Made by a program: the position numbers and the translations under genes
Part shown: positions 43,033-47,482 of the stretch, piece by piece
Position numbering within the stretch: position 1 is the first letter of the stretch
How the letters are laid out: the number at the start of each line of letters is the position of its first letter
From: Roseobacter sp. CCS2
Lineage (GTDB): Bacteria > Pseudomonadota > Alphaproteobacteria > Rhodobacterales > Rhodobacteraceae
Assembly (NCBI RefSeq): GCF_000169435.1
Contig: NZ_AAYB01000004.1
Coordinates: forward strand, 62,001 to 126,000
DNA length: 64,000 bases
Direction: 5' to 3'
Notes under the pieces: model-generated
What the model was told of the DNA's origin: nothing
The model's database searches: none
Seen by the model: the letters and a program-made list of their open reading frames with translations, nothing else

Positions 43033-43707
43033 CTAAATCTTGGACGGCGCATGCACCGCTTGTTGTTGCGCGATATGCGTCGATCGTGTTATCGCTGCGG
43101 CCTGCTTTGCCTTTTCGATGGATCGGCGCACGGCAGGCATCGCCATGGCGACATAGCGGCGGTCATCGTGCAGGTTGGTATAAGGTTCACCGATGATTTT
43201 CGCAGGATAGCCAAGCTGACGCAACGTTCTTGCAAAAACAGGCGGGCAAAGCGCGATAATTTCAGTGGCACCCTGTGCCGTTGCCTGTTCCACGACACCG
43301 TCTAGAACCAGACCAAGGCATTCTGAACGCTCGGCATGTGTGCCAAGTGTATCAGAAATCACCACACGGGTGGCTTCCCAGACATTCGGCGTGACTTCTG
43401 CATGTGGAATGATGTCGGCAGGGATGCCGATCAGTTTACCATCCACAGCGTCGCGCAACATATAGGTATGTGACCCCCATTGGGCGGTCGTCGCCATCGC
43501 GCGCATGCCGCCCACGACTTTGCCATCTTTCAGCACAAGCGAATAATACGCCTTGGGGTTGTCGTACTGATCCATCTCCACATCATCGTCATGTGGAATG
43601 TCCCAGCCAAGCTGATCCACAAAGAACTGTTTGCGTAGCGCAAGAAACTCAAAGAACGCAGTTCCGTGCTTGTGGAGCTCTGTCAGGTTAAAAGTAATTT
43701 TCTCCAT
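43033..43707 (-). CDS. LuxI-type acyl-homoserine lactone synthase
   Basis: A 224-residue autoinducer synthase that makes an acyl-homoserine lactone from SAM and an acyl donor. The invariant residues are in place: Arg25, Phe29, Trp35, Asp46, Asp49, Arg69, Glu111 and Arg114 (LRKQFFVDQLGW, EMDQYDN, GGMRAM, WEATRVVIS). I chose the start at 43707 because AGGGA precedes it and the protein then begins MEKITFNLTELHKHG. It lies 124 bases downstream of luxR on the same strand, with two palindromes in the gap. Acyl chain length cannot be told. Confidence 0.94.
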   Translation of the reverse strand: MEKITFNLTELHKHGTAFFEFLALRKQFFVDQLGWDIPHDDDVEMDQYDNPKAYYSLVLKDGKVVGGMRAMATTAQWGSHTYMLRDAVDGKLIGIPADIIPHAEVTPNVWEATRVVISDTLGTHAERSECLGLVLDGVVEQATAQGATEIIALCPPVFARTLRQLGYPAKIIGEPYTNLHDDRRYVAMAMPAVRRSIEKAKQAAAITRSTHIAQQQAVHAPSKI

Positions 43708-43762
43708 AGTCTTCCCTCTGGTTGTAAACATTTTAGCGACGGTCCCCACCCCCGCGATTGCT

Positions 43763-43800
43763 GATGTTAACATCGCATCAACAATTTAGCTCTAATTGTT
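43763..43800 (-). promoter_or_regulatory. Two palindromes upstream of luxI (lux-box candidates)
   Basis: GATGTTAACATC (43763-43774) is a perfect 12-bp palindrome, and AACAATT-N7-AATTGTT (43780-43800) is a perfect 21-bp inverted repeat. They lie 56-93 bases before the luxI ATG. Size and place fit binding sites for the LuxR encoded just upstream; neither matches the classical Vibrio lux box sequence. Confidence 0.55.
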
Positions 43801-43831
43801 CACAATAAAGAAAAAAAGGCTTAAGTTATTC

Positions 43832-44440
43832 TCAGATTAAGCCATATTGGTTGGCCAATGCGGCCGCTTGGGTGCCTGTTTTGGCACCAAGTTTAAGCTT
43901 CGCGTTCTTTAAACGCTGCTTCACCGCGCCTTCACTCACACTCAACTCAAACGCGATCTCTTTAAGGCGCTTGCCGTCTTTGACCATGCCCAAAGCTTCC
44001 AGTTCAGCCTTCGTCAAATTTGTCGGCGGTGCTGTTTCGTTGTGGCGGCGCGTCAGATAGGCAAGCAAAAGTTTCACTTCCAGATCGGTATAATCCCGGT
44101 CAGATCGCGTAAAAGATGCAAAGGAACGCTGCGCGTCCGCGCTGCTGTCAAACACAGAAACAGTCACGCCAAACCGCATGCCAAAGGTCTGTGCCTGTGC
44201 AATGATACGTTTGGGATCATCTTCGGCAAGCTTGAACCAGCGGATCGTGCCGACATTGCCGTATGCCCACTTAACGACCGGATCAAAAAGCATAAATCGC
44301 TGCTTGGTATAGTGGGCGATCCATCCTTGCGGAAAGGCATTCACTTCTTCCATGGGAAAGGCAAATCCAATGCGCAACGCGATGTAATAGCCCGATGGGG
44401 CAAGTTGCCCAATCTCATCTGGACCAAGAAGTGTCGACAT
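43832..44440 (-). CDS. LuxR-family quorum-sensing regulator
   Basis: A 202-residue regulator with an N-terminal autoinducer-binding domain (about 10-135) and a C-terminal LuxR helix-turn-helix (about 140-202). Ligand-pocket residues of the TraR type are present: Trp in FPQGWIAHYT, Asp in LFDPVV, Trp in TIRWFKL and Gly in FGMRFGVTVS. The DNA-binding helix is LKEIAFELSVSEGAVKQRLKNAKLKLG with the usual VK..L..A..KL. It is transcribed toward luxI and diverges from a ligand-domain-only gene. Confidence 0.93.
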   Translation of the reverse strand: MSTLLGPDEIGQLAPSGYYIALRIGFAFPMEEVNAFPQGWIAHYTKQRFMLFDPVVKWAYGNVGTIRWFKLAEDDPKRIIAQAQTFGMRFGVTVSVFDSSADAQRSFASFTRSDRDYTDLEVKLLLAYLTRRHNETAPPTNLTKAELEALGMVKDGKRLKEIAFELSVSEGAVKQRLKNAKLKLGAKTGTQAAALANQYGLI

Positions 44441-44507
44441 TCACCTACCTCAACGAGCCGTTGTTTTCACAAAGCTCTTGTTGCAACGACAAAGTTCACC
44501 TTAGTAT

Positions 44508-44528
44508 GATCAAACCCATCGTGTGATC
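44508..44528. promoter_or_regulatory. Palindrome between the divergent LuxR-type genes
   Basis: GATCAAA-N7-TGTGATC (44508-44528), with six of seven arm positions complementary. It has the same 7-7-7 layout as the luxI-upstream repeat but different arm sequence. It lies 54-74 bases before the start at 44582 and 68-88 before luxR, so it could serve both. Confidence 0.45.
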
Positions 44529-44581
44529 GGACTTTATGGTCATATTGTTCGAGTTGGCAACCGGAAAGCGAGTACAAGTCA

Positions 44582-45070
44582 ATGGCCTCTACACAGTTTG
44601 AGATTAGCGAGGCGCTGGGGCAGCTTAATAAACTTGCTCCAACCGGCTACGCACTGGGCATTCATATTGAGTATACGACGCCAAAATTCATGTTTCAGAC
44701 CTATCCGAAGGCATGGTTGGATTACTATTCCAGCAACGGGCTGATTATGTCGGATCCCATGGTCGCATGGGCCTTTCAAGAAGTCGGGGCGCGGCGTTGG
44801 TCTGACCTTGATGATCCGGCAGGCGTCATGATCAAGGCCGCCGAACACGGTATGACGCATGGTGTTGTGGTTTCTGTTGCATCAGAAGACAGTCGTACAA
44901 TTTGTGGCTTTGCAAACGCTGAACGCGAATTTACCGATGAAGAGATCGCACAGATCGAAGATCATGTCGCCCGTATTCACGAAAACACGGCCGACACAGC
45001 ACAGCTTGATCCCGCAACGATAGAACAACTGAAAAAAATGTCGATTATGGTGACGCACCCCGGCTCTTAA
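44582..45070 (+). CDS. LuxR-type autoinducer-binding domain protein without DNA-binding domain
   Basis: A 162-residue protein that is an autoinducer-binding domain over almost its full length and stops just where the helix-turn-helix would begin (LDPATIEQLKKMSIMVTHPGS end). Pocket residues match the neighbouring LuxR: YPKAWLDYYS, MSDPMVAW, ARRWSDLDD and HGMTHGVVVSV. No remnant of an HTH follows in any frame before the next gene 49 bases on, so this is not a fresh frameshift. It could titrate signal or form inactive dimers with LuxR, as truncated TraR-like proteins do, but that is inference. The ribosome site is weak. Confidence 0.88.
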   Translation: MASTQFEISEALGQLNKLAPTGYALGIHIEYTTPKFMFQTYPKAWLDYYSSNGLIMSDPMVAWAFQEVGARRWSDLDDPAGVMIKAAEHGMTHGVVVSVASEDSRTICGFANAEREFTDEEIAQIEDHVARIHENTADTAQLDPATIEQLKKMSIMVTHPGS

Positions 45071-45119
45071 CGCCCCGCAACTAACCAGATTTTTACGAAA
45101 CGTCGATAATACGGCTGGT

Positions 45120-46181
45120 ATGGAATTGCATGCTGCCCCGTTATCTGATCCACCCCTGTCGCGTCGCCGCAAGGCCGCGATGATTATCCAGATGCTGTTG
45201 GAAGACGGCAATACCATATCGCTTGGGCAGTTGCCTGAACAACTCCAACTCAAACTCACCGATGAACTGGGCACCTTGCGCTTGGTCGATAAGGCCACAG
45301 TTTCTGCCGTCGCCGAAGAATTCACAACCGAACTTGAAGCGATTGGTCTGACCGCGCCGGGCACCCGTGACGGGGCGATCACAACGCTGGCCGACCACCT
45401 TAGCCCTGACATCGCCAAAAACCTGCGCAGCCAGTTGGAAAGCGTGCGAAATGGTGATCATTGGCCCATCGTGACCGAGCTGGGTATTGAGCGAATTCTT
45501 GCCATCATGCTGGCCGAGAGTACGGCAATTTGCGCGATTACCCTTTCAAAACTCCCGGTTGTAAAAGCGGCAGAGGTCTTATCGCGGACACCCGGCGAAA
45601 GGGCGCGTCGAATCACATATGCCATGTCACAAACGGAAAGCATTCCACCCGATGCTGTACGCCGTATCGGGTCCGCTTTGGCCCAAGAATACGGTCATCC
45701 CGCAAATGTTGCCTTTGAAAAAGCACCTGTTCAGCGCCTTGGTGCGATCCTGAACTCGACCGTTACAGACACCCGCGAAGATGTGCTGGCCGGCCTGAAC
45801 CAGGAAGACGTCGATTTTGCCACCAACGTGCGCAAGGCGATTTTCACCTTCAAAGACATTGCCCCCCGCGTCAAACCAACCGACATTCCGAACACCATCC
45901 GAAATGTGGATAACGATACTTTGCTGACAGCCATCGCTGCCGCATTGAAAGGGGACGATGCACTGGTCGCATCAGCGGAATTTATTCTCAGCAGCGTATC
46001 GCAACGTATGGCAACCCAGCTGCGCGAAGACGCTGAAGAACGTGGTCATGTCAAAAAAGCTGACGCGGAAAAGGCCATGGCGGCAATCACCACAGCCATC
46101 CGCGAAATGGCCGACGCTGGCGTGATCACGCTGATTGACCCAGATGAGGCCGATGAAGAAGACGACACCAACAGCGAATAG
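45120..46181 (+). CDS. fliG: Flagellar motor switch protein FliG
   Basis: A 353-residue FliG-family rotor protein. N-terminal domain (RRRKAAMIIQMLLEDG), middle domain with LSKLPVVKAAEVLSRTPGERA (typical FliG repeat), and the C-terminal motor domain with NVRKAIFTFKDIAPRV and the charged DNDTLLTAIAAALKG helix that meets the stator. An acidic tail (DEADEEDDTNSE) ends the protein. No other flagellar gene is in the window. It starts 49 bases after the LuxR-domain gene on the same strand, so the two may be co-transcribed. Confidence 0.9.
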   Translation: MELHAAPLSDPPLSRRRKAAMIIQMLLEDGNTISLGQLPEQLQLKLTDELGTLRLVDKATVSAVAEEFTTELEAIGLTAPGTRDGAITTLADHLSPDIAKNLRSQLESVRNGDHWPIVTELGIERILAIMLAESTAICAITLSKLPVVKAAEVLSRTPGERARRITYAMSQTESIPPDAVRRIGSALAQEYGHPANVAFEKAPVQRLGAILNSTVTDTREDVLAGLNQEDVDFATNVRKAIFTFKDIAPRVKPTDIPNTIRNVDNDTLLTAIAAALKGDDALVASAEFILSSVSQRMATQLREDAEERGHVKKADAEKAMAAITTAIREMADAGVITLIDPDEADEEDDTNSE

Positions 46182-46220: not shown

Positions 46221-46568
46221 ATGACCAAAAACACCACATTCGATGGCCGGCGCTGGCATGACATGGGTGGCACCGCCGCAGGCCCTGTTCCGACGGATCA
46301 GCATGATTTTTCACTTTGGGAAAAGCGCGTTGACGCTTTGATGATCATCGCCTCAGGCAAGGGGCACTTCACTGTTGATGGCCTGCGCCGGGTGCTTGAG
46401 GACATGAGCGAAGACGCATTTGAAACCATGACCTACTACGAACGCTGGATCGCATCTGTGAACCAAAACCTGATCGAGGCAGGGGTCTATACCACCGCCG
46501 AACTTGGGCAACGGATGTCAGATGTGGCGGCACGCGGCACAACATATGGCGAGGCCGCAAGTGAGTGA
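46221..46568 (+). CDS. Nitrile hydratase/thiocyanate hydrolase beta subunit, N-terminal half
   Basis: A 115-residue protein equal to the N-terminal half of a nitrile hydratase beta chain. Family features: the start RRWHDMGGTAAGPVP, WEKRVDALMIIASGKG, and TYYERWIASVNQNLIEAGVYTTAEL, with the active-site arginine in YYERW. The HDMGG start argues against a maturation activator of the P14K type, which lacks it. Its stop TGA lies inside the GTGAGTGA that starts the next gene. With the two following genes it forms the scnB-scnA-scnC-like layout. Confidence 0.85.
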   Translation: MTKNTTFDGRRWHDMGGTAAGPVPTDQHDFSLWEKRVDALMIIASGKGHFTVDGLRRVLEDMSEDAFETMTYYERWIASVNQNLIEAGVYTTAELGQRMSDVAARGTTYGEAASE

Positions 46569-46848
46569 GCGTCAATATATGCGCGTCAGGGCCGACATGC
46601 CGCCGGGCCATGTACGCACACCCGCCTACCTGCGTGGCAAGGTCGGCTGGGTCGAACGGACGCTGGGCCCCTTCCCCAACCCCGAACAATTGGCATACGG
46701 CATGCAGGCTATGCCGCTGCCTTTGATGCGTGTGCGCTTTACGATGGCCGATATTTGGGGCGCGGATGCAGACCGCCCCCGCGACACGATAGACGCTGAA
46801 ATCTATCGCCATTGGCTTGAACCGGCGGAGGCGCCCCATGCCACATGA
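46561..46848 (+). CDS. Nitrile hydratase/thiocyanate hydrolase beta subunit, C-terminal half
   Basis: A 95-residue SH3-like protein equal to the C-terminal half of the beta chain. It has GHVRTPAYLRGKVGWVERTL, LPLMRVRFTMADIWG and IDAEIYRHWLEPA, the usual end of the family. It starts at a GTG (46561) overlapping the upstream stop by eight bases; an in-frame ATG at 46579 would cut into the conserved part. It ends inside the alpha-type gene. In thiocyanate hydrolase this half is the separate alpha subunit. Confidence 0.83.
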   Translation: MSERQYMRVRADMPPGHVRTPAYLRGKVGWVERTLGPFPNPEQLAYGMQAMPLPLMRVRFTMADIWGADADRPRDTIDAEIYRHWLEPAEAPHAT

Positions 46849-47482
46849 TCACCACGACCACCTGTCACCATCAGGCCATCCTTATCGGCCCGATGACGAT
46901 CATCCGCTTACCTATTGGCAGCAGATGGAAATCGCGGTGCGTGAACTTTTGATCGAAAAGGGCGTGACCACCGCACAAGAGATTGCCGCCCAGATTGACA
47001 CGATGGATGCCCGCAACCCCTCACATGGCGCGGCAGTCGTTGCGCGCGCCTGGACGGACCCGGATTTCCGCGATGACTTGTTACAAGACGCAAGCGCGGC
47101 CACCCGCGAAATGGGTTTTGACATTGGCCCCATGCGGCTGATCGCGCTGGAAAACACCGATACAGAACACAACGTTGTCGTTTGCACGCTCTGCTCTTGC
47201 TATCCGCGTAACCTGCTGGGCCTACCGCCTGATTGGTACAAATCCCGCGCCTATCGCGCACGCACCGTCAAGGAACCCCGCAAGGTACTGGCCGAATTCG
47301 GCGTCACCCTGCCCGACACCACGACAGTGCGCGTCCATGACAGCACCGCGGACATGCGCTATGTCGTCATTCCGGCACGGCCCGCCGGGACAGAAGGCTG
47401 GCATGCGGATGATCTGGCCACACTGGTCACGCGCGACAGCATGATCGGCACAGGCCTGCCCAAATCACCGGATATTGCGTGA
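46838..47482 (+). CDS. Nitrile hydratase alpha/thiocyanate hydrolase gamma subunit, cobalt type
   Basis: A 214-residue metal-binding catalytic subunit. The metal claw is VVCTLCSCYPRNLLGLPPDW (about residues 113-132); Thr between the cysteines marks the cobalt type, and the cysteines are normally oxidised to sulfinic and sulfenic acids. Also typical are WTDPDFRDDLLQDASAATREMG and VHDSTADMRYVVIPARPAGTEGW. Start at 46838 has GGAGG six bases upstream and overlaps the preceding gene by 11 bases. The His-rich N-terminus (MPHDHHDH) could help metal loading. Nitrile hydratase and thiocyanate hydrolase cannot be told apart by motif alone. No activator gene is adjacent. Confidence 0.9.
   Translation: MPHDHHDHLSPSGHPYRPDDDHPLTYWQQMEIAVRELLIEKGVTTAQEIAAQIDTMDARNPSHGAAVVARAWTDPDFRDDLLQDASAATREMGFDIGPMRLIALENTDTEHNVVVCTLCSCYPRNLLGLPPDWYKSRAYRARTVKEPRKVLAEFGVTLPDTTTVRVHDSTADMRYVVIPARPAGTEGWHADDLATLVTRDSMIGTGLPKSPDIA

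Follow-up and report, generated by a model that had tools for sequence, protein, structure and literature searches.

The protein encoded at 44582-45070 of the window (the whole 64,000-nucleotide stretch of Roseobacter sp. CCS2 DNA analyzed here) is a LuxR-type ligand-binding domain without a helix-turn-helix (HTH), and from its sequence we identify it as an orthologue of CerN from Cereibacter sphaeroides. In the part of PMC11655674 available to us, CerN is described as an HTH-less LuxR homologue and an AHL-dependent antagonist that removes the regulator CerM from DNA. By analogy, we consider it likely that the window protein is an AHL sensor of the same type, whose AHL-bound form would pair with the CerM-type LuxR encoded beside it and take this LuxR off DNA.

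A ligand-binding domain encoded beside luxI and luxR

The locus comprises the following features, in window coordinates.

43033-43707, minus strand: LuxI-type AHL synthase (PF00765, E 2.2e-18)
43832-44440, minus strand: complete LuxR of 202 residues with Autoind_bind and GerE domains (Pfam), of CerM type by its clade (100/100); predicted partner of the HTH-less protein
44478-44507, plus strand: predicted promoter of the HTH-less gene, TTGTTG-N18-TAGTAT (consensus pattern in close loci)
44531-44560, minus strand: predicted luxR promoter, TTGCCA-N18-TAAAGT, interlaced with the opposite promoter (consensus pattern)
44554-44573, unstranded: conserved 20-bp block TTGGCAACCGGAAAGCGAGT, holding the predicted luxR -35 on the minus strand (few changes in an alignment of 18 close loci)
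44582-45070, plus strand: gene of the HTH-less LuxR ligand-binding-domain protein, CerN orthologue (PF03472 only; CerN clade; AlphaFold pLDDT 90.7)
45005-45067, plus strand: part coding for the C-terminal tail (residues 142-162), in which MSIMVTHPGS comes after a probable HTH helix 1 remnant (alignment, motif counts, AlphaFold)
45120-46181, plus strand: fliG, the only FliG gene found in the genome, co-directional and possibly co-transcribed

The HTH-less gene is a complete open reading frame from ATG to TAA, encoding 162 residues. Its called start codon fits the consensus of 17 close rows at the N-terminus, M-x-x-TQ-x-EIS, which is not present in every row. Autoind_bind (PF03472, E 3.7e-16) was the sole Pfam domain over the cut-off in the product, and the same search gave no GerE or other HTH match. 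The product retains each of the six pocket positions that PMC11655674 names for TraR (W, Y, D, P, W, G). The earlier note on this DNA had read the gene correctly: a domain-only product that ends before the HTH, the retained TraR-type pocket, and the divergent orientation from a complete luxR. Stop codon and fliG are 49 bp apart, which leaves no room for an HTH downstream. The AlphaFold model, built from 17 sequences, has its closest solved structures in the LuxR-type ligand-binding domains of SdiA, TraR, CviR and RhlR. RhlR superposes on it with a Z score of 14.6 over 138 residues at 2.7 A, and the VIA-align rows mostly end near residue 142.

What lies beyond that residue differs from the earlier note, which had stated that no HTH remnant follows. 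No HTH does follow, but the last 20 or so residues align with the first HTH helix of the partner LuxR. AlphaFold places a helix at residues 144-152 of the window protein, followed by a strand at 156-158, and a helix at 144-154 of the partner. Since this tail and helix 1 of the partner's HTH start at the same point, the tail probably derives from that helix in a reshaped form. The motif L-x-x-[ML]-[ST]-[IV]-x-x-[ST] occurs in the tail of 45 of 63 HTH-less rows and in the matching region of none of 80 full-length rows, duplicates being kept among the latter. Of ten additional HTH-less rows, two have the strict form. A looser form is found in 51/63 HTH-less rows but also in 8/80 full-length rows, and the tail of CerN has this looser form without the strict one. 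By these counts, the motif appears to mark most of the HTH-less family, not all of it.

The CCS2 genome (3.5 Mb, 99.85% complete) was found to encode three autoinducer-domain proteins: the window protein, the neighboring LuxR and a solo receptor of full length, which is encoded on another contig beside an open reading frame with near-identical 59-residue repeats (L049:3-869). Only one LuxI was found; we chose to set its start at 43707 (MEKITF...), within a frame that opens at 43773. The AlphaFold model of the partner LuxR is poor overall (pLDDT 54.8), with values of 80-94 over residues 141-200, and we relied on it for the HTH alone. Searching 43600-45200 for a known RNA element in the leader gave no Rfam match at E values up to 10. 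On the other side of the HTH-less gene, the window FliG scores 109.9 bits against a curated cut-off of 226.7, and FliF is encoded on another contig. Directly after fliG lie nitrile hydratase genes (46221-47482), with the N-terminal part of the beta chain at 46221-46568, kept in 14/16 close relatives, and the alpha chain at 46817-47482.

Start codons of luxR and the HTH-less gene are separated by 141 bp, and the two predicted promoters face each other in an interlaced arrangement in which each lies within the leader of the other gene. These promoters are consensus predictions; we picked the patterns for promoters and block with the alignment already in view and compared them with first-order shuffles. 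The plus-strand pattern TTG-N17/18-TAnnnT is present in 18/18 close loci, the window included (shuffle mean 1.4, maximum 5), and in 3/21 distant loci. The minus-strand pattern is present in 15/18 close loci (shuffle mean 1.3, maximum 4) and 11/21 distant loci. Within the conserved block, CAAC[CT] at -45 to -14 recurs in 18/18 close loci (shuffle mean 1.2) and 15/21 distant loci (shuffle mean 1.5). When defined more strictly, the block had two matches in 25 further loci, one of them inside the gene, and CAACC was seen by eye upstream in several more. The block looks local, as genome matches to its core were no more numerous than those of a reversed-pattern control: one exact copy and eight with two mismatches make nine, and the control gave nine as well. 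We therefore rejected a regulon defined by the block. Neither of two searched forms of the published CerM motif occurs in the intergenic region of the window.

Conservation of the gene and its relation to CerN

Orthologues beside luxI and luxR, which the earlier note had suggested looking for, are present in all 16 relatives found in a scan of genome contigs, which detects close relatives only. These loci, from Loktanella, Yoonia and other Rhodobacteraceae, are 48-86% identical and encode products of 162-168 residues. Their order is the same in 16/16: purB, luxI and luxR, then the divergent HTH-less gene, then fliG. The earlier note had also named a full-length protein at this place in related strains as the finding that would speak against it; we looked for one in the same relatives and found the protein HTH-less in 16/16, and we rejected an assembly error or local deletion as the cause of the truncation.

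The pocket is conserved well beyond these relatives. We compared 63 HTH-less rows, comprising the window, the close loci, loci from family genomes and two plasmids, with identities to the window protein down to about 40%. W45, Y49, D58, P59 and W73 are invariant in 63/63, and two candidate pocket glycines are kept in 62/63 and 61/63. With ten rows added, all five residues are kept in 71/73, the exceptions being L106 (W73L) and L114 (P59T). In the pocket and tail-motif counts, L074, L079, L080 and L085 were excluded as duplicates, and the full-length rows include duplicates; neither the 63 rows nor the two trees described below include G103, the genome of L080, which the 73-row count does include. 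Looking for the gene beyond the family, we sampled 385 genomes from the class; 2 gave a match at E 1e-15, both from the window's own genus. In most pairs of close relatives, dN of the HTH-less gene is about twice that of its partner. Its dN/dS is 0.13-0.15 for L034/L036, the only pair with unsaturated synonymous sites and weak evidence when taken alone. The HTH-less gene of genome G010 is part of a frame that runs for more than 900 codons between stops (L082:2-2806).

For comparison with CerN, we took its row from genome G051, which has a 100% match to a named C. sphaeroides plasmid LuxR. In the G051 cluster, the HTH-less gene and a LuxR gene diverge, and a second LuxR gene and luxI follow the latter, which is the published order of CerN, CerM, CerR and CerI. 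Its pocket letters also match those published, WYDPWG in CerN and F in place of W57 in CerM. Window protein and CerN share the Autoind domain without HTH, the pocket letters, a divergent CerM-type LuxR with luxI in the cluster, and their clade in the tree. The CerN cluster differs in its extra LuxR (CerR) and in that no fliG was found beside CerN. Identity across the aligned domain is 34% between the window protein and CerN and 33% between the window LuxR and CerM; for CerN against CerM it is 28% in our alignment and 31% in PMC11655674.

In a careful tree of 60 rows, unrooted and with bootstrap values that have not settled, the HTH-less proteins including CerN form one clade (100/98), and the divergent partner LuxRs including CerM form another (100/100). 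Nearer to the HTH-less clade than the neighbor LuxR lies a further set of full-length LuxRs, the third group (91/34); this group and the HTH-less clade together reach 100/100. The proteins of the third group are roughly 205 residues long, and we label them "GtaR-type" here, a label of our own given without comparison to a named GtaR. The 60 rows were picked by hand from 124, leaving out LuxB of Dinoroseobacter shibae, CerR, the CerR relative L071_697 and the solo LuxR. A quick tree of all 124 rows, with long outgroups, agrees on the CerM-side clade (100), but the HTH-less label needs four changes on it as against one in the 60-row tree. The single HTH-less clade depends on omitting the long outgroup rows.

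We further analyzed how faithfully the two genes are kept together. A profile search based on 27 partner LuxRs, with a cut of 206 bits, found a CerM-type LuxR in at least 57 of 295 family genomes. The cut was set by eye in a narrow gap between 207.8 and 205.4 bits, and G051 C5, just under it at 205.2 bits, groups with CerM in the 124-row tree. The window LuxR scores 340.9 bits, being itself a row of the profile. Of the 57 listed genomes, 54 carry the HTH-less gene in the cluster of this LuxR, 46 known from the earlier loci and 8 of 11 checked afterwards. The HTH-less gene is divergent from luxR in 51/54 and co-directional in G094, G183 and G288. Conversely, the HTH-less gene was seen in at least 55 of the 295 sampled genomes (54/294 genera) and shares a cluster with a LuxR in 54/55; the remaining genome, G244, has no LuxR within the 5.5 kb fetched. 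All 55 have a LuxI, in the cluster in 47 and elsewhere in 8.

The CerM-type genomes without the HTH-less gene are G085, G291 and G024, judged from 5.5 kb each and from having no surplus matches beyond their full-length LuxRs; G085 is 94% complete. No LuxI exceeds the cut-off in two of these genomes; in the remaining one, a LuxI lies next to a LuxR of the third group. In G291, purB, luxR and fliG follow in the usual order with neither luxI nor the HTH-less gene between them (L105:971-4427). With three cases only, this suggests that loss of the signal is accompanied by loss of the sensor. The distance matrices of the two proteins correlate (r 0.79, 62 pairs; r 0.65, 45 pairs without most close relatives), which partly reflects common descent.

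Some loci are arranged differently. On a Qingshengfaniella alkalisoli plasmid (L056:2296-4477) and at L076:1340-3526, the HTH-less gene is co-directional with luxR and luxI lies between them; at L106:1704-3052, the two are co-directional. A second kind of luxR/HTH-less pair occurs near IS elements on a Loktanella salsilacus plasmid and in G006 (L054, L074), where no luxI was found beside it.

Proposed mechanism and alternatives

According to PMC11655674, in the part we draw on, CerM binds DNA without AHL. CerN binds CerM in an AHL-dependent manner; with AHL it weakens CerM-DNA binding in vitro and, in E. coli, lifts the repression exerted by CerM. CerN is also required for Fla2 swimming and the expression of ctrA, and CerM levels drop in a cerN mutant. 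Following this work, AHL-dependent heterodimerization with release of the LuxR is the most likely mode of action at the window locus. AHL from the adjacent LuxI would bind the HTH-less protein, which in its AHL-bound form would pair with the divergently encoded CerM-type LuxR. Formation of the mixed pair would take the LuxR off DNA, so that at high cell density the genes it holds in their low-density state would be switched. One difference from the published pair lies in the pocket of the DNA-binding partner. CerM has F at W57, a tryptophan that the CerN authors suggest matters for affinity (PMC11655674), whereas 66/67 partner LuxR rows, the window's included, keep it. As it retains this residue, the partner LuxR here may also sense AHL itself.

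The same domain could serve as an AHL buffer, a homodimer that soaks up signal and raises the quorum threshold with no contact to the LuxR. The complete and conserved pocket would suit this role, and PMC4338825, as far as that text was available, gives ligand sequestering as one of the two roles it proposes for domain-only proteins. A buffer has no need, however, of tight linkage to one class of LuxR (54/57), and CerN acts through contact with CerM (PMC11655674), so we regard this reading as unlikely. Contact could instead be positive, with the protein acting as a co-receptor or stabilizer that keeps the LuxR folded or active. The fall in CerM in the cerN mutant makes stabilization part of the known behavior, but CerN with AHL weakens DNA binding by CerM and lifts its repression (PMC11655674), and a purely supportive role seems quite improbable.

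The earlier note had also offered the product of the next gene, fliG, as a partner through which quorum sensing would be tied directly to the flagellar motor. Its closeness to the HTH-less gene and its being the sole fliG found speak for such a route, by way of FliG or another non-LuxR partner. Across the family, fliG follows the HTH-less gene in only 32/64 loci, 18 of these from the Loktanella/Yoonia group, and nine of the 32 loci in which it was not found offered only about 1.5 kb downstream. The LuxR neighbor is far more constant (54/55 genomes). FliG is thus an unlikely partner, and we give a sensor acting through it very little weight. Even less credible is a decaying, functionless remnant of a duplicated luxR. 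Loss of the HTH and the roughly doubled dN would fit decay, but frame and pocket are kept across dozens of genera and the one usable pair has a low dN/dS; on these same grounds we rejected a pseudogene. Pairing with the CerM-type LuxR remains the reading we prefer.

Known systems and meaning for the family

The earlier note had drawn its idea of mixed dimers from TrlR of Agrobacterium, and that idea held in part. Action on the neighboring LuxR is the best reading, with CerN binding CerM and the pair conserved in the family, but the likeness to TrlR itself is loose. TrlR is also a LuxR-type protein without HTH and forms inactive mixed dimers (PMC11655674, PMC13043044, from the parts available). 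It is, however, an 88% identical copy of TraR that blocks an AHL-activated regulator (PMC11655674). The window protein appears to belong to an old separate lineage; with 32% identity to its neighbor over 150 columns and a clade of its own, it is not a recent truncated duplicate of the TrlR kind.

The protein is no LuxR solo either, having no HTH and a luxI in its cluster. TraM, QslA and Aqs1 are small anti-activators that are not LuxR ligand-binding domains, and the window protein, itself such a domain, falls outside their class. A 2026 review of LuxR protein-protein contacts (PMC13043044) names TrlR, TraM, QslA and Aqs1; CerN does not occur in the part of its text available to us. LuxB (Dshi_4067) of Dinoroseobacter shibae has been described as an autoinducer domain without DNA-binding domain beside luxI (PMC4046655, in the available part). 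The first 50 kb of the plasmid record contain a single autoinducer-domain gene, which is now listed with 308 residues and is taken as LuxB by annotation. This presumed LuxB has a very long branch outside the HTH-less family in the 124-row tree, and there was no Dinoroseobacter record among the matches listed.

The locus itself is in print, in Loktanella and relatives. Cude and Buchan 2013 (PMC3824088) present it as topology D, with fliG in the opposite orientation and purB downstream, and their table appears to give this topology a second luxR locus, found by autoinducer domain alone and, in the part consulted, with no mention of a missing HTH. In the available text of this survey, no organism with a topology D locus had been studied for quorum sensing. 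Subramoni 2015 (PMC4338825) lists it as group 4, fliG - [hp - abd] - luxR - adenylosuccinate lyase, in Loktanella and Rubellimicrobium, suggests ligand sequestering or LuxR binding as possible roles of domain-only proteins, and calls for further study of them. In the parts of these two papers we could draw on, no mechanism is assigned to the gene. We found no link between CerN and this locus in the open-licence literature, most subscription papers lying outside the scope of our search.

The gene, the locus and the kind of mechanism are therefore known already; what is new is the orthology to CerN/CerM, the single origin of the HTH-less lineage, the joint retention of both genes and the predicted interlaced promoters. 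The link to CerN/CerM provides a concrete, testable mechanism for the family genomes that carry the HTH-less gene, at least 55/295 of those sampled (54/294 genera). The authors of the CerN study left its origin open between ancient duplication and fast divergence (PMC11655674, in the part consulted), and our tree supports an old lineage of single origin. More tentatively, CerN/CerM might be, rather than a peculiarity of C. sphaeroides, an old AHL receptor of the Rhodobacteraceae made up of two proteins, in which the HTH-less subunit mainly senses and the other binds DNA. Such a pair would have arisen once and been inherited as a unit. At least in the Loktanella/Yoonia group, interlaced, face-to-face promoters would drive it and could allow only one of the two genes to be expressed at a time; the sensor would be lost once AHL production stops.
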